Source of the DNA: Flavobacterium ovatum
Lineage (GTDB): Bacteria > Bacteroidota > Bacteroidia > Flavobacteriales > Flavobacteriaceae
Assembly (NCBI RefSeq): GCF_040703125.1
Contig: NZ_CP160035.1
Location: forward strand, 806,001-870,000
Direction: 5' to 3'
Length of the DNA: 64,000 nt
Under the pieces are notes generated by a model. The model was not told the DNA's origin, did no database searches, and was given only the letters and a program-made list of their open reading frames with translations. The position numbers were made by a program, and so were the translations under genes. Numbering within the stretch: the first letter of the stretch is position 1; every line of letters starts with the position of its first letter. Positions 685 to 56,035 of this stretch are shown here, one piece after another.

Positions 685-2811
685 TCAAGCATTTTCTATT
701 AATTTCATATTAGAAACAAACTTTGATGTCTGTTCCATATCAAAATATTTATCCTTCAAAAGCTTTACCTGATACTTTTTAGGCAAATAAACTCCCCATT
801 TAGAAAAATCTAATAAAACAGGATTTGACTCTAAAAGAGTAGAAATATGTGGGTCAATATCACTTAATGGTAAGGATATAGAATTCCATTTAGAAATTAA
901 TTCTTTTTTTGCAACTTGAATATAAAATGAACTACTTGCATCGTCCAAAATATTTGTTATTCCTGCTATATTCAAAAGTAATTGAATGGTCCTATTTACT
1001 CGTGTTCCTGTAAAAGTAAAAAGTTCTATTTTTTTGTCGGATGATAATAATGGACGGTCATATTCTAAATCTTGAATATTAAAAAATGAAAAATCTTTTC
1101 GTATTATTTCTAATTCATCAGAACTAAGTTCGTCGAGAAAATCATAATTTACTTCTGAATAAAGAATATCAAGTATTTTTTCTCTTATCTTATGATGTAC
1201 TGCACCACTGTTACCAAAAAACATTGGTTTTTTTCCATCTCTAGCGGGAATTACTTCAATCTTTTTTGCTTTGAGGTCTACATATTTAATCTTCCAAATT
1301 TTGGCGGAAAGTAAAATATTTTCATCTTCAATAATTTGCGGAGAAAAGGGAACTTCACCAATTTTATTACCAGCATTTACTACCTTAAAATTTTCTTCGG
1401 TCTTAAAGACGCTATAAAATTCGCGGCTGTTAACCACTTTTTCTCCTTCTATTCCAATTATAACCTCCTGTTGAATTCTCTCAAGGAAGTCTATTTCAAT
1501 TAAATGATTAATAATTTCTTCAACTTCAAATAATTCAATTCTTTTAAAAGCAGAGTTTTCAAGAAGCTGACTTATTAAATCAGGGATTTTAATTCCTGAG
1601 TATCCTTTAGTTATTGACAGTGCTTGATGCACTAAAATATCATAAGGCTTTTCATTTGTCTGTGGCGGTTCAATATAACCTTCTTCGTATAACAACCAAC
1701 AAGCTATAGATTGAAGCAGACTCCATTCATTTGTAGCGTATAAATATAAACTGCTACTCTCTCCTTCTTTTCGTCCGCTTCTTCCCACACGTTGAATTAA
1801 AGAAGAAATACTATTTGTTGCATCAATTTGAACAACTGCGTCAACGGCTCCAATATCAATACCTAATTCTAAAGTAGATGTACATGAAATACAAAAATTC
1901 TTTCTGTCGTTGTTTTTTGCAAAATATTCAACATATTCCCGAACTTCTCTATCAACTGATGAATGATGTGAAAAATAATTAGAATGACCTTTTACTAATT
2001 CAGAAATTTTCCTAAGCTTTACAGCAACCTCTTCTACTCGTCCTCTACTGTTAGGGAAGATTAAAACTTTATTGTCTTTTGTTTCAGTGTATAAATCTTT
2101 TAAAAGCTCTAATGGTAAATCAGTATTCTTACTTTTAAAGTATTTAAATATCGCATTAACTTCTTTTACTGTTCTATCTAATAGCACTTTAGTTTTTAAT
2201 TCATCGCCTGTAAATCTTTTAGCTTCTTCATAATCACCAATTGTTGCCGATAGACCTACAATACTGTATGGTTTTGAATTTAATTGTTGCAATCTAAAAA
2301 GAATAGATTTCAATTGAACTCCTCTATCTGTTCCTATAAATGAATGTATTTCATCTATAACAACGTATTTAAGATTTGAAAATAATTGTTTTACGTTGAA
2401 TGGTTTGTTCACAAACATTGCTTCTAAAGATTCTGGAGTAATCAGAACAATCCCTCTAGGATGTTTTAACAATCTATCTTTAATTGTTTTATTTGCTTCT
2501 CCGTGCCACTTTACAACATCTACATCAAGATTTTTACACAGTTCTTCCACACGGTAAAATTGATCATTAATTAGAGCAATTAAAGGCGAAATATAAAGAA
2601 CTTGAACGCCAGGCTCATTGAAGTCAACTTTTGAAAGAATAGGCAAAAAAGCAGCTTCTGTTTTACCTGACGCTGTTCTTGATGCTAAAATATAGTTATC
2701 ATCAGATGTTAGAATCCTTGTTATAGCGGCTGCTTGAATTGGGCGCAATTGTTCCCATCCTTTATCACGAATAAATTTTCGTATTGGTTCTGAAAGTAGA
2801 TCAAACGCCAT
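685..2811 (-). CDS. Lhr/BrxHI-like superfamily 2 helicase
   Basis: This is a 708-residue DEAD/DEAH-type helicase. It has a Q-like motif (LRPIQAAAI, about 23-31), motif I ASRTASGKTEAA, motif II VIDEIHSF, motif III LSATIG and motif VI QRVGRSGR. The layout of a helicase core followed by a long C-terminal part resembles Lhr-like helicases and BrxHI of BREX systems, which usually sit beside brxD. It is the last gene of a three-gene operon: its ATG overlaps the stop of the upstream ATPase by one base (TAATG), pointing to coupled translation. Likely role: DNA unwinding in a defence or DNA-processing system. The helicase call is firm; the BREX-like role is inferred from context. Confidence 0.85.
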   Translation of the reverse strand: MAFDLLSEPIRKFIRDKGWEQLRPIQAAAITRILTSDDNYILASRTASGKTEAAFLPILSKVDFNEPGVQVLYISPLIALINDQFYRVEELCKNLDVDVVKWHGEANKTIKDRLLKHPRGIVLITPESLEAMFVNKPFNVKQLFSNLKYVVIDEIHSFIGTDRGVQLKSILFRLQQLNSKPYSIVGLSATIGDYEEAKRFTGDELKTKVLLDRTVKEVNAIFKYFKSKNTDLPLELLKDLYTETKDNKVLIFPNSRGRVEEVAVKLRKISELVKGHSNYFSHHSSVDREVREYVEYFAKNNDRKNFCISCTSTLELGIDIGAVDAVVQIDATNSISSLIQRVGRSGRKEGESSSLYLYATNEWSLLQSIACWLLYEEGYIEPPQTNEKPYDILVHQALSITKGYSGIKIPDLISQLLENSAFKRIELFEVEEIINHLIEIDFLERIQQEVIIGIEGEKVVNSREFYSVFKTEENFKVVNAGNKIGEVPFSPQIIEDENILLSAKIWKIKYVDLKAKKIEVIPARDGKKPMFFGNSGAVHHKIREKILDILYSEVNYDFLDELSSDELEIIRKDFSFFNIQDLEYDRPLLSSDKKIELFTFTGTRVNRTIQLLLNIAGITNILDDASSSFYIQVAKKELISKWNSISLPLSDIDPHISTLLESNPVLLDFSKWGVYLPKKYQVKLLKDKYFDMEQTSKFVSNMKLIENA

Positions 2812-4124
2812 TATAATTCTTCTATACTATCTAATGAGAATTCAGCAGGTCTTTCATCTGAAATTTCAATTTCTCCAAATAATTTATTCTTATCTACTGC
2901 TGGGTTTTGACGGATGATATTTAGTATGTTTAAAAAATCTCGGATAACTTCCCTAGGAGTTAAAAATTCTGATGCCCCAGGTTTGTTAAATAATTCTTCC
3001 ATAAATTTCTGAATATCATCATCATTGATTGACAATTCAGTTTTGTAATTGTAATCAAATATTGCTTTTAAATTTTTAAGCAATACAAATATTTGATTAT
3101 GATCCAAAGGGAGCAAACGAATAACTGGTTGAGCAAAATCTCTTATTTCAGCAGTTTCGTATTTATTAGTTACCAATCTTGTTTTTAAAGCATCATAACT
3201 AAAAAAGCCTCTACGTTGATTCTCTAAAACTTCCTTTGTACCTGCAAAGTTGAAAAATAAATTAGCAACTTTTCCTTGAAAACAATCGTTGTAAATGGTT
3301 AATATTTTTTCATAATTTTTCTCTCTAATAGCAGAATTCGAAATTTTATAAAGATTGATAGCTTCATCAAGATTAACCATAAAACCACTGTACCCCATAC
3401 TAACAAATAGTTTACAGAAATTTTTAAGCATGTCATAATAATTCAGATCATTGATAATTTCTCTAATTCCTAAATCTTGCCTCGCTTCAGTTTTGGTTCT
3501 GTATTCACCCTTTAACCATTTTAAGGCATTTCTTCGTAATTGTTCATCGTCTTTAATATAACCTTCATAATATTTCATTACAACCAATCCAAAATCAAAA
3601 CCACCAACATCAGTAATTTCGTTGATGGTTTTCATAATATTAGTCTGAATCATACTTAAATAATTTTCATTGCGAATTTCAGTCAATGAAATATTATTTT
3701 CTTCAGCTGTTTTAGTAACAACCTGCTCAATCCATTTTTCTAATAGTGTTGGCAATGCTCCACCTTCAGGCTTTGTCTGAATGGAAACATTATCCATAAT
3801 GGCGGTATAAAGAGCAACCGCTTTTCCATCATTAGAATACAAACGATTATCTGGAGTAAAATCTGCGTTAGCTACAACAAATTTCTGCTTTAAGGCAACA
3901 GTATTTAGCAGGTGAAGCATAAAGGATTTTCCTGAGCCAAAATCACCAATCCAAAATTTCACCATACTATGACCATTTTTGACATCATCTAAGGCAGTAA
4001 CAACTGCATTAATTTCTTCTGAACGGCCAACGGCAATATGCTGCACACCAATTTTTGGAACTACTCCTCCAATTAATGAATTGATAATTGATGTCGCTTC
4101 TTTAGGTTTAATATTTTTTATCAT
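2811..4124 (-). CDS. BrxD-like P-loop ATPase (DUF2791)
   Basis: This 437-residue ATPase carries a Walker A motif in IGDFGSGKSFML (about 58-69) and a Walker B-like strand ending in FMVNLDEA. Length, the N-terminal VGRSEEI segment before the P-loop and the helicase gene behind it fit the BrxD family (DUF2791), ATP-binding proteins found in several BREX types. It lies between the TerB-type gene, whose stop it overlaps as ATGA, and the helicase gene. None of the hallmark BREX genes (brxA, brxB, brxC, pglX, pglZ) is present, so this is not a BREX system but a smaller cassette that shares two of its parts. ATP hydrolysis is expected from the intact motifs. Confidence 0.8.
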   Translation of the reverse strand: MIKNIKPKEATSIINSLIGGVVPKIGVQHIAVGRSEEINAVVTALDDVKNGHSMVKFWIGDFGSGKSFMLHLLNTVALKQKFVVANADFTPDNRLYSNDGKAVALYTAIMDNVSIQTKPEGGALPTLLEKWIEQVVTKTAEENNISLTEIRNENYLSMIQTNIMKTINEITDVGGFDFGLVVMKYYEGYIKDDEQLRRNALKWLKGEYRTKTEARQDLGIREIINDLNYYDMLKNFCKLFVSMGYSGFMVNLDEAINLYKISNSAIREKNYEKILTIYNDCFQGKVANLFFNFAGTKEVLENQRRGFFSYDALKTRLVTNKYETAEIRDFAQPVIRLLPLDHNQIFVLLKNLKAIFDYNYKTELSINDDDIQKFMEELFNKPGASEFLTPREVIRDFLNILNIIRQNPAVDKNKLFGEIEISDERPAEFSLDSIEEL

Positions 4125-6697
4125 TTTATAGAAATTTTTTGAAAATAGTCTGTGTTTATAATATAAAAATCATCTTCTTCCTCAATTAATACATCGTCCA
4201 AAAGGTCATAACAAATGTCGTTAATGCTTTCTATTAATTGGTTCTTAAATAGTCCCTTTGATTTTGCAAATATTTCAAAATCAATTTGTGAAATTGAGAA
4301 GTTGTTTTTAGCAAATAATTCTAATGTGGCTATATGTATTTCGGTAAACTTTATTTCATCTATGAATGTTGACTTGTAAAGTTCTTTATTCATCTGAGGA
4401 ATTTCAATTTTAATTTCATGTTTATTTACATCTTCAAATTCTATTACGGAAACTTCTTCATCTAAGTCATCTTTTAAATATTCATTTAAAAGATCAACAG
4501 TTTCTGAATGTTGTTCTATAACTTCTTTGATCGAAGTTCTATCAAGTTGAATTATTTTTCGTTTAACTTTGTATACATTAGAGATTAGGTCTAGAGCTTT
4601 GTCAACATTCCTGTCTTCAATTAATCCACTAATAATATTTTCAAAAATTAGCGATTGCTCATTTGTATTAAACAAAGTCTTTTTGATGGTTTTTGGCAAC
4701 TGTTTATTATTGAAATTGTTAGATTCCAAATCGTAATACAAATAACAAACATAAAAAGTTAGAGATGTTTCTTTATCGTATTTCGATATAAACTTTGAAG
4801 CTTCAAAAAATATATTTTCAATTGAAGGATTTTTTTCATTTAGTATTGCAAGAGAATAAATAGCGTCAATAAATTCTCTAGAATTTTCATTATAATTTGT
4901 CGTTAATTCCTCAAACTTAATTTTCCAACGATTTGTGTTTTGTGAATATAGTTCAACCTCAGTTGCTTCATCTGGAAGAGAAACTTTAGAAATTAATAAA
5001 ACAATTAATTTTCTGACCTTAGAAATTACCTTAGTCTCATAGATAATTTCTGTATCCTCTTTTTTATAGATATTAATATCTAATTTTCGTTTATGCCCAT
5101 AATATTCACGGACAGCATTTTCACAATGTTTAAAAATATTAGTATGAATTTCATATATTGCTAAGTTTAAATAATGATTATAATTTTCAGTTCCTGCATC
5201 ATAATTAAGATGCCTTTCTGTAAGCAACTTTGCAACAGTTGAAAATTCAGTATTTAAATTCGTTCCTTCTTCAATATACTTGATTTCTAATTCTGACATT
5301 AAAGAAATATATAGTTTAGTGATTTCAAGTGAACAATATTCAATATCAAAAAATCTATTACTTGGGTTATCAATATTATTAAGAAGTTGTATCTCTTCTT
5401 CGTTCAGTTTTAGTTTTTCCTTGTATTTGATTCCTAGTTTCCAATACTCTTCATACGAATATACATCTTCATTCTTAAATGTATTTAAATTAGACTTTTC
5501 TCTCTTCTGTTTACAAAAAGAATCACAATAAGGTTTTGTTACAGGATAATGTTGCCCTAATATTTTACCTTCATTTTCAAGTTTAAAAATATCTTTATGA
5601 TTTTCATATTCACTTAATAAATCGAAAAGTAATATAAAAGCATAATTTGTATTTCCCTCCAAGTTAAGGTAAACACCATTTAAAAAGTTGCTTTTGAAAA
5701 TAGAATAGAACTGTTTTTGCTCATTGGAAGCTCGAACGATTTCAGAAAAATAATAAATATATTTTTGCTTCCAATAAGGAACCTTCAGTACTTCTAATAG
5801 ATTCTCTTTTTTTATCTTATAATTTTCATTCGTAATATCAATTACTGATTCATCATTTTGAATATTTTGAAAATCATCTGATATTTTATCATTCTGTAAA
5901 ATATCAATAATATTTGAAATTGATTCATTTTGTAATGCCTTTTCCTCTTTTATTATATTTTCATAATCTGTGTTTATAGAAAAAACTGCATTGTTATATG
6001 GCTTTTTTATAGTATCTGAATTTTCGTCTAAATGTAATCCAAAATCAATTGTTGATGTTTTCTGGACTAGAAAAGAAGAACAATATGACTTTGTTTTGGG
6101 ATAATGTATTCCTAAATTTTTAAATTGTTCCTCAAGTTCCCCTATGTTTTTGTGATTTTCATATTCCTTTAAAAGATCAAATAACAAGATGAATGCGTAA
6201 TTTGTGTTACCATCCAAATCAATAAAAACATTATTCAAAAACTGATCTTTAAATATTTCATAAAAAAAAATTTGTTCACTAGATGCTCTATTTATTTCAG
6301 AATATGAGTAAATATATTTGTGTTTCCATTTAGGGACATCGATATTGTATTTCAAATTATCTGAAGGAATAATAGTAGTAACTTGGTTTATAATTGAATT
6401 AGACTGATTAAGGTCTTTAGAACTTAAAGTCATTTGAGAAACTTTGATATCTTTCAATTTTTCTTTTAATAAAAAATTCCGCTTACTTTTTTTCTGTGTA
6501 TTATATTTAAAATTGAATTTTTCATCTGAAATTGTTATAAATATTAGAGAATCAATTATACCAATCAATAAAGGAATATAGGTCCAACAAAAAAGTATTG
6601 ACAAAACACCTTTTACTGTCTGTCCTAAATAGAATCTATGAATTCCAATTCCTCCAAAAAATAATGCAAATATGGATGCTGTTCTTCTATTTTTCAT
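4121..6697 (-). CDS. TM2-domain protein with two TerB-N-like repeats and a TerB-C-like end
   Basis: This 858-residue protein opens with a TM2 domain (1-60): two membrane helices, FFGGIGIHRFYLGQ between the start and the first helix, and a short turn. Two similar blocks follow, about 121-214 and 305-400. Both contain a Trp-Lys-(His/Gln)-Lys-Tyr-Ile-Tyr start, GNTNYAFILLFDLL, EYENHK and a YP-x-TK-x-YC end; they resemble the TerB-N region of tellurite-resistance-associated proteins. The last 80 residues (ESINDICYDLLDD, then a short strand) resemble TerB-C. It is the first gene of the operon and its stop overlaps the ATPase start. It probably anchors the ATPase and helicase at the membrane; that role is inference. 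The TM2 call is firm and the TerB calls are from memory of the families. Confidence 0.7.
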   Translation of the reverse strand: MKNRRTASIFALFFGGIGIHRFYLGQTVKGVLSILFCWTYIPLLIGIIDSLIFITISDEKFNFKYNTQKKSKRNFLLKEKLKDIKVSQMTLSSKDLNQSNSIINQVTTIIPSDNLKYNIDVPKWKHKYIYSYSEINRASSEQIFFYEIFKDQFLNNVFIDLDGNTNYAFILLFDLLKEYENHKNIGELEEQFKNLGIHYPKTKSYCSSFLVQKTSTIDFGLHLDENSDTIKKPYNNAVFSINTDYENIIKEEKALQNESISNIIDILQNDKISDDFQNIQNDESVIDITNENYKIKKENLLEVLKVPYWKQKYIYYFSEIVRASNEQKQFYSIFKSNFLNGVYLNLEGNTNYAFILLFDLLSEYENHKDIFKLENEGKILGQHYPVTKPYCDSFCKQKREKSNLNTFKNEDVYSYEEYWKLGIKYKEKLKLNEEEIQLLNNIDNPSNRFFDIEYCSLEITKLYISLMSELEIKYIEEGTNLNTEFSTVAKLLTERHLNYDAGTENYNHYLNLAIYEIHTNIFKHCENAVREYYGHKRKLDINIYKKEDTEIIYETKVISKVRKLIVLLISKVSLPDEATEVELYSQNTNRWKIKFEELTTNYNENSREFIDAIYSLAILNEKNPSIENIFFEASKFISKYDKETSLTFYVCYLYYDLESNNFNNKQLPKTIKKTLFNTNEQSLIFENIISGLIEDRNVDKALDLISNVYKVKRKIIQLDRTSIKEVIEQHSETVDLLNEYLKDDLDEEVSVIEFEDVNKHEIKIEIPQMNKELYKSTFIDEIKFTEIHIATLELFAKNNFSISQIDFEIFAKSKGLFKNQLIESINDICYDLLDDVLIEEEDDFYIINTDYFQKISIK

Positions 6698-7052
6698 TTG
6701 TCAGTAAAACTATCATTTTCTTGTTCAGTACAGTTCTTATAAATAATTTCTAATATTTCTTTCATTTGGTATTGTTGCTTATTTATACATTTTTCAAATA
6801 TATAAACAAAATAGCACAAATAAATATTGTCGAAATTTTACTGCCTATGTTTAAAGAAAAGGTTGACAAATATTAGTTACTATGTCAAATTTATGAAGAA
6901 GAAAATTAAATCCATTACGGTTTTCCGTAATCAGAAAAAATTTCTTTCAATATAATATGTTATTGTTTTGCTCTAAAAAGTATATAGTTCAAGTTTCTAT
7001 TAAAACTTCCGCTGAAATTCGGTGCAAAAGCCATAAATTAAAACCTACATCC
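6698..7052. other. Gap between toxin gene and defence operon
   Basis: This AT-rich spacer has no convincing gene. It holds the operon's candidate promoter and, at 6914-6931, a perfect hairpin (ATTACGG, loop TTTT, CCGTAAT) that could end transcription from the toxin-antitoxin pair, although no strong T-run follows it. A short plus-strand reading frame at 6957-7169 has no recognisable content. Confidence 0.5.
6795..6802 (-). promoter_or_regulatory. Candidate -7 box of the TerB/BrxD/helicase operon
   Basis: The minus strand reads TATATTTG here, a full match to the bacteroidete -7 consensus TAnnTTTG, about 95 bases before the first ATG of the operon. A clear -33 TTTG lies only 14 bases upstream of the box, which is short, so the -33 element is uncertain. 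Confidence 0.45.
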
Positions 7053-7400
7053 CTACCCAAAATACTCCAAAATCCGCGCTCTGTCTTCATTCTCTTTATC
7101 ATTTTTGTGATAAAGCCCAATAAATACAATGCGTTCTTCTTCTTTGAAATGAGCATAAACCAATCGTAGTCCTGAGTTAACTCCTTTTCCTTTTAGGGAT
7201 TTACAGGCAATCTTCTTTATTTTGATGACACAATTTGCAATACCTAGATTATCTATTCTGTAACTAAATGGCGGTCTATCCTCTGGAAGAATTTCTAATA
7301 TTCTTTTTACTGTTTGAATATCATCAACTAAGGTTCTGTACTTCTTTAAAAGATTTTTAAAATCCTTATTATAGGGAGCAATCTCTTCGAATATAATCAT
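7053..7400 (-). CDS. RelE/HigB-like toxin of a Panacea toxin-antitoxin pair
   Basis: This 115-residue protein has the make-up of a RelE/ParE-superfamily toxin: an N-terminal helix region with YRTLVDDIQTVKRILE, then strands with CVIKIKKIACKSLKGKGVNSGLRLVY, then IVFIGLYHKNDKEN near the end, where RelE family members end in a similar strand and basic tail. RelE-type toxins are usually mRNA-cutting enzymes. Its ATG overlaps the stop of the antitoxin gene as ATGA, so the two are translated as a pair with the antitoxin first. Which residues are catalytic cannot be decided by eye. A structural role apart from toxicity is possible but less likely. Confidence 0.7.
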   Translation of the reverse strand: MIIFEEIAPYNKDFKNLLKKYRTLVDDIQTVKRILEILPEDRPPFSYRIDNLGIANCVIKIKKIACKSLKGKGVNSGLRLVYAHFKEEERIVFIGLYHKNDKENEDRARILEYFG

Positions 7401-8194
7401 AACGCATCCTCTTCTTGGTAGTTTCTAACAGAGAATGGCGGTTCACGATAAAAAGCCAGTTCATAATTGATGTCTTCCCCTTCCTTTGAAACTATCCAAG
7501 GAATGTCTTTATGAGAGTAGTTACTAACTGCAGAAGCTGACCAATCACTCATTTGCTCAATGACTCTGTCAATAACTTCTTTTTCACTAGCCATCAATTC
7601 TGTCAAATCTGCTTTTTGCAATGGGATATAACGGGTTTGGGGATAGCCGTGATAATCGGTTTTCAATCGCTGAATCTGATTACTTTCGATCATATCATTC
7701 AGAATGCTGTCTAAGTTTTGAGGAACTGGACCAAAAGGCAATTTTCTATAAGTAGCACCGGTCATTTGCTCTTCATACAATTCGTAATAGTTAAAATCTG
7801 AAAAATAGAGCAACTTATACAAAACCGTTTCTCCAACATTGGGTTTGCCAGCGCAATGCTCCAAAATGTACAGCAGAATATTTTTCATTTTACCAACATT
7901 CAACGAAGGAACTGAAATTCTTTCGGCTGCTGTTTCTATTTTCTCCTCTTCGGAAAAACTTAAAGTTTCGGCTGAAAAATTTTCAGACATAAAGTCGTCA
8001 AGAGAAAAACGGAGTACTTGTGCAAGCTTTTGCAACTCTAGTACATTCAGACTTCTTTTCCCCAATTCAATTTGAGTTAAAGAAGGTCTAGAAATACCTA
8101 TCCGCTTCGCTAGGTCTTCTTGAGATAATTGTTTTCTCTTTCTTAGCGCAACAATTCGTTCCCCTATTTGATCTTGTGAAATTTGAAACATCAT
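7397..8194 (-). CDS. XRE-family antitoxin with Panacea (DUF4065) domain
   Basis: Residues 5-65 form an XRE helix-turn-helix (RIVALRKRKQLSQEDLAKRI, then GISRPSLTQIELGKRS). About residues 100-230 form a Panacea/DUF4065 domain (VLYKLLYFSDFNYYELY, GATYRKLPFGPVP, WIVSKEGEDINYEL). Panacea proteins act as broad antitoxins, neutralising unrelated toxins, here a RelE-like one. I place the start at the MM pair (8194 or 8191), not at the upstream ATG at 8230. A -7 box at 8220-8227 would start the transcript downstream of 8230, and the upstream 12 residues do not belong to the domain. The N-terminal domain probably represses its own promoter through the palindrome at 8234-8248. Confidence 0.8.
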   Translation of the reverse strand: MMFQISQDQIGERIVALRKRKQLSQEDLAKRIGISRPSLTQIELGKRSLNVLELQKLAQVLRFSLDDFMSENFSAETLSFSEEEKIETAAERISVPSLNVGKMKNILLYILEHCAGKPNVGETVLYKLLYFSDFNYYELYEEQMTGATYRKLPFGPVPQNLDSILNDMIESNQIQRLKTDYHGYPQTRYIPLQKADLTELMASEKEVIDRVIEQMSDWSASAVSNYSHKDIPWIVSKEGEDINYELAFYREPPFSVRNYQEEDAL

Positions 8195-8219
8195 GATTTT
8201 GAATACTTTAGTTAGTTTA

Positions 8220-8248
8220 CAAATATACAAAATGTTTCAAGTTAAAAC
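8220..8248 (-). promoter_or_regulatory. Promoter and operator of the Panacea toxin-antitoxin operon
   Basis: The minus strand has TATATTTG (8227-8220), a match to the -7 consensus. Immediately upstream lies an imperfect 15-base palindrome, GTTTTAACTTGAAAC (8248-8234), with 12 of 14 arm positions matching. It overlaps the -33 zone, which is where a self-repressing XRE antitoxin would bind. This is inference from position and symmetry. Confidence 0.55.
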
Positions 8249-8816: not shown

Positions 8817-8987
8817 AAAAAAGAAAAAAATTATTCTTAAAACTGAAATTTTTGACCAAAAAAAGAAGTATTTTTACGGAACTTTAGATATAAATAAAAA
8901 CCAAATTGACACTACAATTACCCTTATTGTCAGTTTATTAGAGTGCAAAAACAACACAAATTAATGAAAGAAAAGGTAAAAGAGACG

Positions 8988-9995
8988 ATGAGTTCAGAGA
9001 AAGAAGCCAAATTAAAAGCGTTGCAATTAACGCTTGATAAACTAGACAAAACCTACGGAAAAGGTACGGTGATGAAAATGGGGGACAAAGCAATTGTGGA
9101 AGTCGAAACCATTTCTTCAGGTTCTTTGGGTATCGATTTAGCCTTAGGAGTAGGCGGTTACCCTAGAGGTCGTATTGTTGAAATTTACGGACCAGAATCT
9201 TCTGGTAAAACAACGTTGACACTTCACGCGATTGCTGAAGCTCAAAAAGCAGGTGGAATTGCAGCATTTATTGATGCTGAACACGCTTTTGATAGAGGAT
9301 ATGCAGAAAAATTAGGTGTTGATATAGAAAACTTAATCATCTCACAACCAGATAACGGGGAACAAGCCCTTGAAATTGCCGAGAACTTGATTCGTTCTGG
9401 AGCAATTGATATCGTGGTTATTGACTCGGTTGCTGCTTTGACTCCAAAGAGTGAAATTGAAGGTGAAATGGGTGATTCTAAAATGGGATTACACGCACGT
9501 TTGATGTCTCAAGCTTTGCGTAAATTAACAGGAACAATTAGTAAAACAAACTGTACGGTTTTCTTCATCAACCAGTTGAGAGAGAAAATTGGTGTGATGT
9601 TTGGAAATCCCGAAACAACAACGGGTGGTAACGCCTTGAAGTTTTACGCTTCGGTACGTTTGGATATTCGTCGTTCTACTCAAATTAAAGATGGTGACAA
9701 CGTACTAGGAAATAGAACGAAAGTTAAAATCGTAAAAAATAAAGTAGCACCACCTTTTAGAACGGCAGAATTTGACATCATGTATGGTGAAGGAGTTTCT
9801 AAAACAGGTGAAATCTTAGACTTAGCAGTTGAATTTGAAATCGTGAAAAAAGCGGGTTCTTGGTTTAGCTACGGTGATACCAAATTGGGGCAAGGTCGTG
9901 ATGCTGTTAAATCTTTAATCAAAGACAATCCTGAATTAGCAGATGAATTGGAAGTGAAAATTAAAGCTAGAATTAAAGAATTGGCAGATAACTAA
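8988..9995 (+). CDS. recA: Recombinase RecA
   Basis: RecA forms ATP-dependent filaments on single-stranded DNA for homologous recombination and SOS signalling. The 335 residues from MSSEKEAK show Walker A GPESSGKT at 68-75, the FIDAEHAF strand, [12 protein letters not shown] (Walker B), the L2 loop region [21 protein letters not shown] and [13 protein letters not shown] choose the ATG at 8988 because flavobacterial RecA begins [12 protein letters not shown] at 8943 and an ATG at 8964 are in frame but would add an unusual basic tail. The gene stands alone, with a structured RNA candidate upstream and a strong terminator after it. No clear LexA-type operator was recognised. Confidence 0.97.
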
Positions 9996-36043: not shown

Positions 36044-39000
36044 ATGAAAAAAAACCTACTTTTTTTTATATTTGCTTTTGTGAATATAAGTCTTGCAATG
36101 GCAAAAACAGCCATTGTAGCCACAACATTTATTCTTGGAGGGATTAATTATGAAGTTATAGCCCCAAATTCTGTAAAAGTAATTGCATTTGATAATGGAG
36201 AAGGAGGCCCCCCTCCTTTTGGAAAAACTGCTAAAACATCTGTTGTTGAATCTAATGTTCACTCTGGTACTGTAACTATTCCAGCTACTGTTACTGATAA
36301 TTCAATTACGTATGATGTTACTGCAATAGGTGATAATGCTTTTTCAAATTCACGTAATTTATTAAAAGTAATTTTACCGGTTTCCATTACTTCAATTGGA
36401 CAAAGTTCTTTTAGTAGTTGTGGTAGTTTACGTTCTGTAAATATTCCTGCGTCTGTTGCTTCTATTGGAAATAGTAGTTTTAGTGGATGTTATGCGTTGC
36501 AACAAGTGAATTGCGATGTTACATCACCAATAGTTATTAATGCGAATGTTTTTAATATTCCTTTGGCAAATGTTACGTTAATTGTTCCTAATGCTAGTAT
36601 CTCTTTGTATAAATCTGCAGATGTTTGGAAAAATTTTGGAACAATAACTGATATGGTGCATACTGTTAACGGAGTAAGTTATGTAATTACTTCGTCTAAC
36701 TCTGTAAAATTAATAGCTAATAGTGGTACTAAATATACTGGTTCAATAACTATTCCTAATTCTGTATTAATTGGATGTTGTATTTATACTGTTACCGACA
36801 TATCTATTGGTGCTTTTAACCAATGTTATGATTTATTAGAGTATATATGTAATATTGAAACACCATTAGTAATTGAACAAAGTTTATTTTATAATATTAA
36901 CAGCTTTACTGGAACTAGATTAATTGTTCCTACTGCTAGTTTAGCTGCTTATAAGTCAGCTACTATTTGGAAAAATTTTGAGTCAATAATTGATTCAACT
37001 CCATTTACTGTCGATGCTTTAAGTTATGAAATAACGGCACCAAATGAGGTAAAATTAGTAACTAATGTGAATAATAAATATTCAGGATCTATAACTATTC
37101 CAGCATCTGTAGATTATAACTCAACTAATTATATTATTACTGCAATTTCAAAATCAGCTTTTTATCAATGTTATAATTTAAATCAGTATAAATGTAATAT
37201 TAGTACACCATTAGTAATTAATCCAAGTTTATTTGACAATGTAGATGATTTATCATTAGCTAGATTAATTGTTCCTACTGCTAGTATTGATGCTTATAAA
37301 AATACTGCTGTATGGGAAGATTTTGGAACAATAACGGATGTGGAACCTTTTACTGTTAATGGATTAGTTTATGAAATTACGTCACCAACAACAGTTAGAG
37401 TAGTAGAAAATTTAATTGATTCATACACAGGATCTATAACTATTCCTTCAACAGTTATTAATAATTCAATTATTTATGATGTTACTGCTATTAAACCAAC
37501 TTCTTTTAAATATAATGAAGCTATAACTAGTGTCACTATTATAGGGGATAAAATTACAGCTATTGATGATGAAACTTTCGTCGGATGTTCTGGAATAACT
37601 TCTTTTACAATTCCTAATTCAGTTACTTCAATAGGTGAGTCTGCTTTTAGTGAGACTGGAATAACTAGTATTACTATTCCAAGTAACGTAACCTTCATTG
37701 GAGAATATGCATTTAGTTATTTAGGTTTAACTAGTATAGTTTTGCCTAGTTCAATAACTACAATAGGAAATGGTACTTTTAGTGGTTGTCAAAATTTAAC
37801 TTCAATTACCTTTAATGGTACAGTTACATCAATAGGAAACTATGCTTTTAATAGAACAGGTTTCAGTAGTTTTGATATTCCTAATACAGTAACTTCAGTA
37901 GGACGTTCTGCTTTTGATTCCTGTGAGAACTTATCATCTGTTACTATTCCTAGTTCAGTAATGTCAATTGGAGAATCTGCTTTTTCTGGTTGTTCACAAT
38001 TAGAAAAGATCGTTATACCTAATTCAGTAACATCATTAGGAGATTATGCTTTTAGTTCTTCTGGTTTAACAAGTATAGTTATTCCTAGCTCTATTACTAG
38101 TATTCCATACGCTTGTTTTAGTTCATGTGAGGACTTAAGATCAGTAATGATTCCTAGTACAGTAAATGAAATTAAAGATTATGCTTTTAATAATTGTCGT
38201 AAACTTGTATTAGTAACTTGTGATATTGTATCTCCATTACCTATTAGATATGTTTTTAGTAATAGTTATAATGCTACTTTAGTTGTTCCTACGGTTAGTC
38301 TTAGTGATTATAGAATGACTGATGAATGGAAAGAATTTAAGATTATAACTGATAGTGCTCCTTTTGTAGTAAATGGTATTACTTATGAAATTACTTCAGC
38401 TTCAACAGTAAAAGTAAGATCTAGTATAGGAAATCAATATTCAGGTTCAGTATCTATCCCAGAAAATGTAACATACAACAGCATTATTTATTCCGTAACG
38501 GCAATTGGAAATGAAGCTTTTTATGAATGTTATAATTTGACTTCTATAAGTATTGGTAGTTCGGTAAGTACTATCGGAGATTACGCTTTTTATAATACAG
38601 GGTTAACTTCGGTAGTTATTCCAAATTCAGTAACTACTATTAGTGAAGGTGCATTTAATTCTTGTGAAGATTTAGGTTCTCTTACAATTGGGGAACAAGT
38701 TACAACCATTCAAGATTATGCTTTTGCTGGTAATGAAAATTTAACTTCAGTAATTTCATTAATGACTACGGCGCTAACTATTAGTTCAACTGTTTTTCAG
38801 TATGTAGATCAATCAAATTGTAGCTTAACTGTTCCAACTACAAGTTTAGTTACTTATCAAGCAGCAGCTGTTTGGAAAGATTTTAGTCCAATAACAGGTA
38901 GTTCTACACTTGGTATTAATGATTTGAATAGGAATAACAGTGTTTCTATTTATCCTAATCCTGTTCAAAATGAATTGTTTGTATCCTCAAAAAATATAGA

Positions 39001-39166
39001 TAAAACAACAGTACAAGTTATTGATATTAATGGAAATGTAGTGATCCAAAAAACATTATCTTCTTCTGTAAATAGTGTTGATACAAGTATTTTAGTTAAA
39101 GGAATGTACTTGATAAAATTAAATTCTAATGAAGGTATAGTTATTCAAAAAGTGATTAAAAATTAA
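36044..39166 (+). CDS. BspA-type leucine-rich repeat surface protein with T9SS tail
   Basis: The 1040-residue protein begins with a signal peptide (MKKNLLFFIFAFVNISLAMA). Five modules follow, each opening with a motif like VNGxxYEITSxxxVKV, SITIPxxV and xYxVTAI. Each then carries none to many BspA-type repeats (IPNSVTSIGESAFSxxxLTS) and, in most cases, closes with VPTxSLxxYKxxxxWKxF. The last 75 residues (SIYPNPVQNELFVSS, VQVIDINGNVV, KGMYLIKL) form a type A sorting domain of the type IX secretion system, so it is exported and attached to the cell surface. Likely role: adhesion. Its low-GC, Ser/Thr-rich composition and position beside the candidate origin and an IS element suggest gain by transfer. 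Confidence 0.88.
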   Translation: MKKNLLFFIFAFVNISLAMAKTAIVATTFILGGINYEVIAPNSVKVIAFDNGEGGPPPFGKTAKTSVVESNVHSGTVTIPATVTDNSITYDVTAIGDNAFSNSRNLLKVILPVSITSIGQSSFSSCGSLRSVNIPASVASIGNSSFSGCYALQQVNCDVTSPIVINANVFNIPLANVTLIVPNASISLYKSADVWKNFGTITDMVHTVNGVSYVITSSNSVKLIANSGTKYTGSITIPNSVLIGCCIYTVTDISIGAFNQCYDLLEYICNIETPLVIEQSLFYNINSFTGTRLIVPTASLAAYKSATIWKNFESIIDSTPFTVDALSYEITAPNEVKLVTNVNNKYSGSITIPASVDYNSTNYIITAISKSAFYQCYNLNQYKCNISTPLVINPSLFDNVDDLSLARLIVPTASIDAYKNTAVWEDFGTITDVEPFTVNGLVYEITSPTTVRVVENLIDSYTGSITIPSTVINNSIIYDVTAIKPTSFKYNEAITSVTIIGDKITAIDDETFVGCSGITSFTIPNSVTSIGESAFSETGITSITIPSNVTFIGEYAFSYLGLTSIVLPSSITTIGNGTFSGCQNLTSITFNGTVTSIGNYAFNRTGFSSFDIPNTVTSVGRSAFDSCENLSSVTIPSSVMSIGESAFSGCSQLEKIVIPNSVTSLGDYAFSSSGLTSIVIPSSITSIPYACFSSCEDLRSVMIPSTVNEIKDYAFNNCRKLVLVTCDIVSPLPIRYVFSNSYNATLVVPTVSLSDYRMTDEWKEFKIITDSAPFVVNGITYEITSASTVKVRSSIGNQYSGSVSIPENVTYNSIIYSVTAIGNEAFYECYNLTSISIGSSVSTIGDYAFYNTGLTSVVIPNSVTTISEGAFNSCEDLGSLTIGEQVTTIQDYAFAGNENLTSVISLMTTALTISSTVFQYVDQSNCSLTVPTTSLVTYQAAAVWKDFSPITGSSTLGINDLNRNNSVSIYPNPVQNELFVSSKNIDKTTVQVIDINGNVVIQKTLSSSVNSVDTSILVKGMYLIKLNSNEGIVIQKVIKN

Positions 39167-52720: not shown

Positions 52721-55700
52721 TTGGAACAAACACATTTTATTTATCAAAAATTAGAGGCTTTTATTCGAAAATTTTATACGAATGAACTTATTCGCGGAAG
52801 CGTATTTTTCGTTGGTCTAGGATTGTTATACTTGCTATTTACATTATTTGTTGAGTACTTTTTATGGTTACAACCAGTTTCGAGAACTATTCTTTTTTGG
52901 ATCTTCATATTTGTTGAACTTTTTCTTTTACTAAGATTTATACTTTTTCCTATTTTTAAATTATTCAAATTACAAAGAGGAATCGATTACAATCAAGCTT
53001 CTGTCATTATCGGAAACCATTTTTCGGAAGTAAAAGATCAATTGACCAATTTTCTTCAATTGTCAAATGAAAGTCAATCTGATTCTAAATCTGAATTGTT
53101 ATTGGCTTCCATCGAACAAAAAGCAAATTCACTTCAGCCCATTCCTTTTGGTAATGCCGTTAATTTTAATTCAAACAAAAAGTTTCTACCGCTGGCAATT
53201 GTTCCTATTTTGTTATTTCTAATTTTCTATTTGTCGGGTAATAATGAAATTCTATCTCAAAGTTTGAATAGGGTAGTGCATTACAATCAAAAATTCAGTC
53301 CACCAGCACCTTTTGAATTTGTTGTTTTGAATTCCAATTTTCAAACAGAACAGAATCAAGATTTTATTTTTAAAGTAAAAACGGTTGGTTCTATTGTTCC
53401 AGAAAACGCAACCATTCATATTGGTAATGAAAGTTATTTTTTGGAAAGCACGAAGACAGGAGAGTTTCAGTTTACAATTCCTAAACCAAATAGTAATGTA
53501 TTGTTTCACGTGGAAGCAAATGGTATTTATTCTAAGGATTATGAATTGAAAGTCGTTCAAGTGCCTTCCATTTCAAATTTCGAAATGGTGTTAAATTTCC
53601 CTTCGTATTTAAATCGCAAGTCTGAAGTAATTCAAGGTACAGGAAACGCTATTGTTCCTGAGGGTACACAAGTGAAATGGAAGTTATCCACTATTGCTAC
53701 CCAAAAAGTGGATTTTGTTGAGGGTAATAACGTTATTTCATTTGCTAATGTTGGAAATGGCTTTGTTTTTAATAAAAGTATCAGTCAAAATACAGAATAT
53801 CAAATTATTACTTCTAATAAATCCATTCAAAACTTCGAAAAGTTACAATATCAGGTTCAAGTGGTCAAAGATCAGTTTCCGAGTATCAATGTTGGTTTTG
53901 CTCCTGATAGTTGGAAGATAAAAAGCAAGTATGTTCTAGGACAAATTGCCGATGATAATGGTTTGTATAAATTGCAGATTGTGTTTTACGAACATAACAA
54001 AGAAGCTTCTGCCAAACGAGGAACGATTCCTTTGAAAGGAAAGACCGTTGACCAATTTGTATTTTCTTTCCCTGCAAATCTTCCTGTTCAGCAAGGTGTG
54101 GTTTATGATTATTATTTTGAAGTTTTCGATAATGATGTTTTGCATAATTACAAAAGTGCTAAGTCTACTGTCTTCTCCAATCGAATTGCTACTGAGGATG
54201 AAAAGGCCGATCAGGTTTTGCAACAGCAATCCGATAATATTAATGGTTTACAAAAATCTTTAAAAGAACAAACCAAACAATTTTCTGCTTTAGACAAATT
54301 ACAACAACTAGGGAAGGAGAAGAATAATTTTGATTTTAAAGAACAGCAAAATGTAAATGATTTTATTCAGCGTCAAAAGAAGCAAGATGAACTGATGAAA
54401 CAATTTGCAGAAAAAATGAAAGACAATCTGGATGAATTCAAAGATAAAAAGAAGGATGCTTTTAAAGAAGAATTGCAAAAACGTTTGGAAGAAACCAAAA
54501 AGGATTTGGAGAAAAACGAGAAATTATTGGATGAGTTAAAGAAGCTCAACGATAAAATTAAGAATGAAGATTTACTTGAAAAGTTAGACAAGTTCAAACA
54601 AAATAGTAAAAATCAAACAAAGAGCTTGGAACAATTGGTGGAGCTAACTAAGAAGTATTATGTAGAAAAGAAGGCAGAACAATTGGCCGATAAATTAGAT
54701 GCTCTTTCTGAAAAACAAGATAAGTTGGCTGATGCTCCCAAAGAGGATGGTGCTGATCAGCAAGACAAAATCAATAAAGAGTTTGATAAATTACAAGAAG
54801 ATTTGAAGGATTTATCGAAAGAGAATAAAGAATTAAAAAGCCCTGTTGATTTACCAAAGGACGAAGCTGAACAAAAAAGTATTGAAGATGATTTGGATAA
54901 ATCCAAAGAAGAGTTGCAAAAAAACAATGCTTCTAAGGCTAAACCTAAACAAAAATCGGCTGCTCAAAAAATGAAATCGCTGTCTCAAAAGATGAAGCAA
55001 AGTTTGGGTGATAGTGAGAAGGAACAATTAGAAGAAGATGTAAAAATGTTACGTCAAGTTCTGGATAATTTATTAGCCTTCTCCAATTCCGAAGAAGATT
55101 TAATGAAGCAATTCCGGAATCTTAAAACAGGTTCTCCATCGTTGAATCGAAATATTAAACTGCAACAAAACTTAAAAGTACAGTTCAAGCATGTTGATGA
55201 TAGTTTGTTTGCTATGTCTTTACGCAATCCAATAATTGCCGAAAATGTAACCAAAGAGATTGGCAATATTCAGTATAACATGGATAAATCTTTAGATAGT
55301 TTTACGAACTCTCAATTATCAAAAGGTTTGTCTCATCAACAATACACCATTGCTTCTGCAAATGTGTTGGGTGATTTTTTAAGTGATATTTTATCCAATA
55401 TGCAAATGTCACTGTCGGGATCTCAAGGCGGAAAACCCAAACCTGGGCAAGGTGAAGGCGCAGGGATGCAACTTCCAGATATTATCAAAAAACAAAAAGG
55501 TTTAGGTGATAAAGTTAAGGAAGGAATGCAACCTGGTCCAAAACCTGGTGAAGGTAAAGATGGTAAAACTGGAGAAAGTGGACAGTCAGGAAAGGGTAAA
55601 GAGGGGCAAAGCGGAGAAGATGGTGAAGGAGATGCAAAGGCTATAATGGAGATTTACAAAGAGCAAAAGCAACTTAGAGAATCCTTGGAAAACGAATTGA

Positions 55701-56035
55701 ATAAGCAAGGACTGGGAGGAAGTGGAAACAATGCTTTGGAGCAAATGAAGCAAATTGAAAAGCAATTATTGAACAAGGGTTTTAATAATGAAGTCTTGCA
55801 ACGGATCTTGAATGTGAAGCAAGAATTATTAAAATTAGCGACTGCAACTCAAGAACAAAATCAAGATGATAAACGACAATCTGAATCGAATAAAAAGGAG
55901 TTTCTAAATCGTTCTAATGCATTGCCAAACGCTCTGTTAGATTATTTGAACAGTATTGAAATTTTAAATAGACAATCGTTACCTTTGCGCTCTAATTTTG
56001 AACAAAAAGTTCAAGAATATTTTAATAAGAAATGA
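52721..56035 (+). CDS. DUF4175 family large membrane protein
   Basis: The 1104-residue protein has two or three membrane helices near the start (GSVFFVGLGLLYLLFTLFVE, TILFWIFIFVELFLLLRFIL) and one more at about 150-170. A beta-rich periplasmic middle follows, and then a long Lys/Glu/Gln-rich coiled-coil region (residues about 500-760) and a Gly-rich stretch (GEGKDGKTGESGQSGKGKEG). This is the DUF4175 family; function unknown. The start is TTG. Its stop overlaps the ybeY start as ATGA, so it heads an operon with ybeY and perhaps mnmG. A parS-like site (53512-53527) lies inside the gene. Confidence 0.8.
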   Translation: MEQTHFIYQKLEAFIRKFYTNELIRGSVFFVGLGLLYLLFTLFVEYFLWLQPVSRTILFWIFIFVELFLLLRFILFPIFKLFKLQRGIDYNQASVIIGNHFSEVKDQLTNFLQLSNESQSDSKSELLLASIEQKANSLQPIPFGNAVNFNSNKKFLPLAIVPILLFLIFYLSGNNEILSQSLNRVVHYNQKFSPPAPFEFVVLNSNFQTEQNQDFIFKVKTVGSIVPENATIHIGNESYFLESTKTGEFQFTIPKPNSNVLFHVEANGIYSKDYELKVVQVPSISNFEMVLNFPSYLNRKSEVIQGTGNAIVPEGTQVKWKLSTIATQKVDFVEGNNVISFANVGNGFVFNKSISQNTEYQIITSNKSIQNFEKLQYQVQVVKDQFPSINVGFAPDSWKIKSKYVLGQIADDNGLYKLQIVFYEHNKEASAKRGTIPLKGKTVDQFVFSFPANLPVQQGVVYDYYFEVFDNDVLHNYKSAKSTVFSNRIATEDEKADQVLQQQSDNINGLQKSLKEQTKQFSALDKLQQLGKEKNNFDFKEQQNVNDFIQRQKKQDELMKQFAEKMKDNLDEFKDKKKDAFKEELQKRLEETKKDLEKNEKLLDELKKLNDKIKNEDLLEKLDKFKQNSKNQTKSLEQLVELTKKYYVEKKAEQLADKLDALSEKQDKLADAPKEDGADQQDKINKEFDKLQEDLKDLSKENKELKSPVDLPKDEAEQKSIEDDLDKSKEELQKNNASKAKPKQKSAAQKMKSLSQKMKQSLGDSEKEQLEEDVKMLRQVLDNLLAFSNSEEDLMKQFRNLKTGSPSLNRNIKLQQNLKVQFKHVDDSLFAMSLRNPIIAENVTKEIGNIQYNMDKSLDSFTNSQLSKGLSHQQYTIASANVLGDFLSDILSNMQMSLSGSQGGKPKPGQGEGAGMQLPDIIKKQKGLGDKVKEGMQPGPKPGEGKDGKTGESGQSGKGKEGQSGEDGEGDAKAIMEIYKEQKQLRESLENELNKQGLGGSGNNALEQMKQIEKQLLNKGFNNEVLQRILNVKQELLKLATATQEQNQDDKRQSESNKKEFLNRSNALPNALLDYLNSIEILNRQSLPLRSNFEQKVQEYFNKK

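Follow-up and report, generated by a model that had tools for sequence, protein, structure and literature searches.

A Shango operon of the Bacteroidota kind beside recA in Flavobacterium ovatum, with its sngA allele replaced on a nearly constant sngBC background

Shango is an anti-phage system that comprises a TerB-type protein (SngA), a BrxD-like ATPase (SngB) and a DEAD/DEAH helicase (SngC). It was found experimentally to act against phages in Pseudomonas aeruginosa (Johnson et al. 2023, PMC10250203), a paper that also mentions a separate report of Shango in E. coli, and its mechanism is listed as unknown in a 2026 review (PMC12926258). The window analysed here is a stretch of 64,000 nt of Flavobacterium ovatum (NZ_CP160035.1, 806,001-870,000), and all coordinates given below are window positions. 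Three co-directional genes are found on its minus strand: sngA (4121-6697, 858 amino acids), sngB (2811-4124, a 437-amino-acid ATPase) and sngC (685-2811, a 708-amino-acid superfamily 2 (SF2) helicase). The first two overlap by 4 bases and the last two by 1 base, as a preliminary description, which reported overlaps of 1-4 bases, had stated.

The PADLOC profiles for SngA (3.6e-39), SngB (2.4e-166) and SngC (4e-212) all match these proteins, in the canonical Shango order, and the window shares with Shango the TerB-type protein, the BrxD-like ATPase, the DEAD/DEAH helicase and their order and orientation. The defence-profile search of the three proteins together, proposed in the preliminary description, thereby assigns them to SngA, SngB and SngC, and the trio is almost certainly a Shango operon (SngABC) of the Bacteroidota kind. 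Judged from these matches, its function in defence is well supported, because Shango is an experimentally tested anti-phage system; the view of the trio as a candidate defence system therefore holds as to defence and fails as to novelty. The operon thus adds a member to a system already described, and what is less familiar is the variety of SngA anchors and the exchange of sngA alleles.

The match of the SngB profile spans residues 3-424 of the window protein and that of the SngC profile residues 2-701. SngB possesses a Walker A motif (GDFGSGKS, residue 60) and a Walker-B-like motif (FMVNLDE, 248), and SngC the motifs DEIH (153), SAT (188) and QRVGRSGR (340), with SRTASGKT visible in the translation. 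Related loci were collected by scanning genome contigs with SngB, and the best 80 of 114 confirmed SngB loci were kept, so that the sample leans to close relatives. Over these 80 loci, some of them cut by contig ends, the patterns were found for Walker A in 80, Walker-B-like in 79, SngC motif I in 74 and DExH in 79.

The ATPase and the helicase had been described as BrxD-like and Lhr/BrxHI-like, and both labels are borne out. SngB contains the BrxC_BrxD domain (484.3 bits, cut-off 22.2) and is matched by PADLOC BrxD (1.8e-43, 147 bits); SngC contains DEAD and Helicase_C domains and is matched by PADLOC BrxHI (7.9e-132, 439 bits). The best NCBIfam matches of SngC, all below cut-off, are to a ligase-associated DEXH helicase and an ATP-dependent helicase, families which we take to be Lhr-type. 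A helicase phylogeny (PMC12278908) places the SngC, BrxHI, DruE and DpdJ helicases in a potentially distinct defence clade. The BrxD and BrxHI matches are also what speaks for a reduced or degenerate bacteriophage exclusion (BREX) system, made up of BrxD and BrxHI plus a TerB protein, since these BREX accessory proteins share their ATPase and helicase superfamilies and the BrxC_BrxD domain with SngB and SngC. The window operon differs from BREX, however, by its TerB protein and by its better fit to Shango, whose profiles reach 552 bits on SngB and 705 bits on SngC, while the NCBIfam model BREX_BrxD scores 149.8 bits on SngB against a cut-off of 350, which leaves SngB outside the BrxD equivalog family. 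In a search that did not extend to PglX, no BREX operon was found in the genome: SngB itself is the sole BrxC/BrxD match, and the sole PglZ-domain match falls in a frame of 532 residues, about 2 Mb distant. This frame is presumably a PorX-type protein, being typical of such proteins in our judgement. The earlier statement that BREX core genes are absent beside the trio is thus confirmed within that scope, and the profile scores together with the missing BREX genes refute a BREX remnant, to which we give next to no credence, save for a possible remote common origin.

The sngA allele of the window has been replaced on a nearly constant sngBC background. Of the 81 SngA proteins, from the 80 loci plus the window, four truncated at contig ends were dropped, as were 2 of the remaining 77 loci for SngC length, which left 75 loci for a tree of SngB plus SngC. 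On this tree, from which the pair was picked ahead of any SngA tree, the window and the locus of Flavobacterium sp. 7A (L013) are sisters with SH-like approximate likelihood ratio test (SH-aLRT) support of 100. Their proteins are 98% identical in SngB, 92% in SngC, and 91% and 86% in the neighbouring toxin and antitoxin, but 46% in SngA, and the kind of SngA anchor differs between the two. The DNA identity profile, taken in 100-bp steps, gives 90-100% in sngB, 66-97% in sngC, 82-99% in recA and mostly 82-93% in the toxin-antitoxin genes (lower steps 72 and 76%), but 45-71% at about 4300-6700 and 66-77% at 6800-7000. Unrelated DNA in the outer flanks gives about 35-50% under the same alignment, which puts the N-terminal half of sngA close to the floor of unrelated DNA. 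The replaced segment (4250-7000, minus strand) covers sngA without its last ~40 codons together with the promoter region; its limits are approximate, the upstream edge being graded.

A tree of the SngA core, with the last 40 residues removed, was built from 34 hand-chosen proteins: the window, 20 of the 80 loci and 13 database proteins. The window groups with P0002, and L013 with P0122 and P0124; forcing the two SngA proteins together costs 193.7 log-likelihood units (approximately unbiased test, p-AU 2.5e-7). Among the 2,775 pairs of the 75 loci, the median identity of the SngA core is below that of SngC in every band of SngB identity, and the pair of window and L013 has the second lowest residual of all. 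The pair L073-L085 and the pairs of L020 resemble it, but in them the DNA upstream of sngA is likewise unrelated, which leaves the window and L013 as the only clean case. Pfam TM2 is found in 22 of 98 database relatives of the L013 SngA core, among the matches listed, and anchor and core therefore also vary separately.

The TM2-anchored, TerB-type first protein of the preliminary description is recovered in SngA of the window, where Pfam recognises TM2 over residues 2-49 (50.4 bits against a cut-off of 27.9) and TerB_C over residues 708-855 (90.2 bits against 26.3). The TM2 coding region (6551-6691, minus strand; residues 3-49) was delimited by Pfam TM2 and a home-made TM2 profile. Behind the anchor, a module of about 90 residues occurs twice (121-210 and 306-394), where TerB_N would sit, followed by a helical core and TerB_C; the stretch that best matches the PADLOC SngA profile is residues 307-855. 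The AlphaFold2 model has predicted local distance difference test (pLDDT) values mostly above 90 at 311-710 (with a dip at 401-420) and 781-850, and is poor in the anchor and linkers. Compared with described Shango, SngA of the window differs by its TM2 anchor and its duplicated module at the TerB_N position, and has no Pfam TerB_N or TerB match. Haloarchaeal Shango (Natrinema zhouii, archaeon DL31) has the gene order of the window and a TM2-type SngA N-terminus, seen in Natrinema as Pfam TM2, alongside TerB_C, and in DL31 by a near-identical N-terminal sequence; its SngB is about 40% identical to that of the window. In contrast to the window protein, however, the Natrinema SngA has a typical TerB_N (188 bits), and TerB_N is present in 5 of 6 distant SngA proteins scanned.

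Anchors were assigned in the 77 SngA proteins from 19-residue hydropathy and home-made TM2 and SH3 profiles, on open reading frames (ORFs) taken from the earliest possible start; L052, a fifth cut protein with an open N-terminus, was retained since its anchor is visible. An N-terminal anchor was identified by hydropathy or TM2 profile in 54 of the 77: 37 are helix-type, 4 TM2, 8 SH3 plus helix and 5 SH3 plus TM2, and 23 have none. A Pfam scan of 71 of the 81 proteins, excluding the 4 cut ones and 6 near-duplicates, identified TerB_C in 71, SH3_3 in 12 and TM2 in 9. On the SngB plus SngC tree, the minimum number of changes is 18 for the five anchor classes, 4 for TM2, 9 for anchor against none and 5 for SH3, as parsimony counts on a quick tree with no shuffle control. 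Among 12 distant plasmid-borne SngA proteins, taken with annotated starts, 8 are anchored: those of Sulfitobacter, Cetobacterium, Pseudoalteromonas, E. coli (one helix), Methylorubrum and Bradyrhizobium, and with TM2 those of Natrinema and DL31. In the E. coli protein the match to PADLOC SngA starts at residue 41, past the anchor. In the SngA proteins of Halocatena and Hymenobacter, TM2-like or hydrophobic residues precede the annotated start, and those of Paenibacillus and Moraxella show no anchor in the part inspected. The idea of a membrane anchor is thus strengthened for most SngA proteins and does not extend to all. In the literature on Shango and SngA that was covered, no account of anchors or allele exchange was met; Millman et al. 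2022, reportedly the source of the E. coli report, and a 2012 survey of Ter domains fall outside that scope and may describe anchors.

We consider it probable, with considerable room for doubt, that the locus is a Shango operon of the Bacteroidota kind, inserted as an accessory element by recA, that acts as a membrane sensor coupled to motors. The TM2 anchor would place SngA in the inner membrane as a tethered sensor and adaptor, whose TerB-type helical cytosolic part may recognise something made or exposed by the phage and whose conserved C-terminal part may couple it to SngB. SngB, the BrxD-like ATPase, would then switch or load SngC, and this Lhr/BrxHI-like helicase would act on phage DNA near the membrane. 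Complex formation, the contact through the C-terminal part of SngA and the action on DNA at the membrane, which the preliminary description had suggested for phage DNA on entry, are inferences. A sensing role of SngA is proposed tentatively, because a fast and exchangeable SngA beside steadier motors fits a sensor. At a comparable, still tentative level, SngA may be the specificity subunit of Shango: a module held at the membrane that recognises phage, with its alleles and, independently, its anchors swapped by recombination on a conserved SngB-SngC motor; the anchor kinds so exchanged would perhaps be the single helix, TM2, SH3 plus helix and SH3 plus TM2. A parallel may be drawn from general knowledge with HsdS of type I restriction, where likewise exchange affects one subunit gene and the genes of the partner enzyme remain the same. 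No sequence relation is claimed, SngA differs in having a membrane anchor, and a DNA specificity of SngA would be analogy only.

Several observations weigh against these readings. The segment 8300-8800, between the toxin-antitoxin genes and recA, is mostly unaligned with L013, and sngA is therefore not the sole changed part of the insertion. Some pairs are reversed, with the SngA core more conserved than SngC (L088-L089, 87% against 78%; L037-L041), and rapid divergence with allele replacement would also fit escape from phage inhibitors. Since 23 of the 77 SngA proteins have no anchor by the hydropathy and profile rule, membrane tethering is not strictly required; the rule is itself crude, being applied to earliest-start ORFs, and its counts include a doubtful anchor at residue 138 of L072 and the open N-terminus of L052. 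Pfam TerB_N was found in none of the 71 Bacteroidota-type SngA proteins (E up to 0.001), and a profile-profile comparison with TerB_N gave a weak result (probability 10%, E 0.003). The trio yielded no nuclease domain, which leaves a destruction of phage DNA without explanation. Finally, the anti-phage activity of the window copy is itself inferred from the phage restriction known for other Shango members.

The membrane anchors frequent in SngA, and the SH3 domains that precede the anchor in 13 of 77 proteins (Pfam SH3_3 in 12 of 71), would also suit abortive infection, in which SngA senses a disturbance of the envelope, in some relatives through a putative outside SH3 domain, and SngB and SngC damage host functions. 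PADLOC, Pfam and NCBIfam revealed no toxic domain in any of the three proteins, however, and we regard this explanation as unlikely.

The three genes recur as a unit, a point that the preliminary description had proposed to check. In all 80 of the best-scoring loci the SngA gene ends 60 bp or less from the start of sngB, and in 78 of them sngC follows sngB within 200 bp, the exceptions being L018 (2 kb) and L068 (436 bp); with SngA and SngC at 80 and 78 of 80 SngB loci, the grouping is not due to chance. L018 is a Limnohabitans-labelled contig with a Bacteroidota-type Shango, whose three proteins are 90-99% identical to those of L016/L017 and whose sngB and sngC are separated by those 2 kb; transfer or wrong binning may account for it. 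At E up to 1e-60, SngB was found in 20 of 395 genomes of the phylum, including its own, and on 677 of 72,556 plasmid records; no Shango was found in 50,697 phage genome records (E 1e-5). Twelve plasmid records were chosen by hand (six proteobacteria, a fusobacterium, Paenibacillus, Hymenobacter and three haloarchaea), and 11 of them carry the full trio by annotation and position; the twelfth (L094) stops after sngB at the end of its circular record, with sngC out of view. PADLOC confirmed SngA in 5 of 5 and SngB in 2 of 2 of the proteins scanned from these records. Genes of the Fic family lie near Shango in 3 of the 12 (L094 Sulfitobacter, L095 Cetobacterium, L099 Hymenobacter) and are possibly a recurring partner. 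In two haloarchaeal records, L098 (8739-11230) and L181 (8739-11230), genes for a metallophosphoesterase and for an ATPase of the SMC type come after the Shango operon and may form a Mre11/Rad50-like pair.

The operon was acquired as an accessory insertion beside recA (8943-9995, plus strand), which forms its right border. Together with a toxin-antitoxin pair it sits between a thioesterase gene and recA; within the genus, 40 of 41 genomes have the latter (E up to 1e-150). The site was examined in 29 of the 39 relatives of the genus with recA. In 14 of these the gap between thioesterase and recA is 136-910 bp and contains no Shango, although one of the 14 (G004) has Shango genes elsewhere in its genome; in the other 15 no thioesterase was found within the 1.5 kb or less examined before recA, which makes them uninformative on the gap. 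The gap is about 9.7 kb in the window and 8,690 bp in Flavobacterium sp. 7A, and both contain the toxin-antitoxin pair and Shango. The position next to recA, and the best, sub-cut-off NCBIfam match of SngC to a ligase-associated DNA damage response helicase, might suggest a host module for DNA repair or housekeeping, as stress responses also make use of TerB proteins and Lhr helicases. Such a role is highly improbable: the trio is absent from the site in those 14 readable relatives, its distribution over the phylum and on plasmids is patchy, and it matches the profiles of Shango, whose members restrict phage.

The pair beside the operon, outside the Shango core, consists of a probable toxin (7053-7400, minus strand, 115 amino acids) and a probable antitoxin (7397-8230, minus strand, 277 amino acids) with Pfam HTH_3 and SocA/Panacea domains; for the 115-residue partner, searches of PADLOC, Pfam and NCBIfam (E up to 0.01) gave no family match. 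A toxin-antitoxin pair is plausible, but as support for a defence island, as earlier proposed, it is weak, its relatives occurring at 1 of 80 Shango loci, the closest one, L013 (antitoxin E <1e-20). A PADLOC scan (E up to 1e-25) likewise gave no enrichment around Shango, with 47 families in 140 flanking proteins against 55 in 140 controls, so that the proposed location of the trio in defence islands was not borne out. The flanking sample was a random draw from the 512 ORFs that lie 5 kb or less from Shango, taken among ORFs of up to 900 amino acids and representing 55 of 57 loci, and the controls were the first 140, with no random draw, of 171 ORFs in 19-kb stretches near recA in relatives. 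The counts are of families rather than proteins, many models overlap, and the control included a Septu-like cluster. This cluster (L158, 11265-16261), a PDC-M59 pair with a Septu-like PtuA, lies about 6.5 kb or less upstream of recA in the relative G025.

Between the thioesterase gene and Shango, the window also contains a ferritin gene and a thioredoxin-like 2Fe-2S ferredoxin-like gene (1-648). In L013 the distance from sngC to the thioesterase gene is just 344 bp, which makes these genes extra in the window. Neither had a match in the recA stretches of 11 relatives, and ferritin relatives were found elsewhere in 11 of 15 genomes searched. Farther along the window are a 1104-residue ORF (52721-56035), for which Pfam gave no match (E up to 1e-6), and a BspA-type leucine-rich repeat protein (36044-39166) with a Por secretion tail for type IX secretion.

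Shango-type genes are common, including on plasmids predicted to be conjugative. The recurrent anchors and the replacement of sngA point to SngA at the membrane as the candidate sensor. If SngA is indeed the specificity subunit, Shango would defend the cell from the membrane through receptors that can be swapped, and the window and L013 would be a natural receptor-swap pair; as two close operons that differ mainly in SngA, they make the role of SngA in phage range directly testable.
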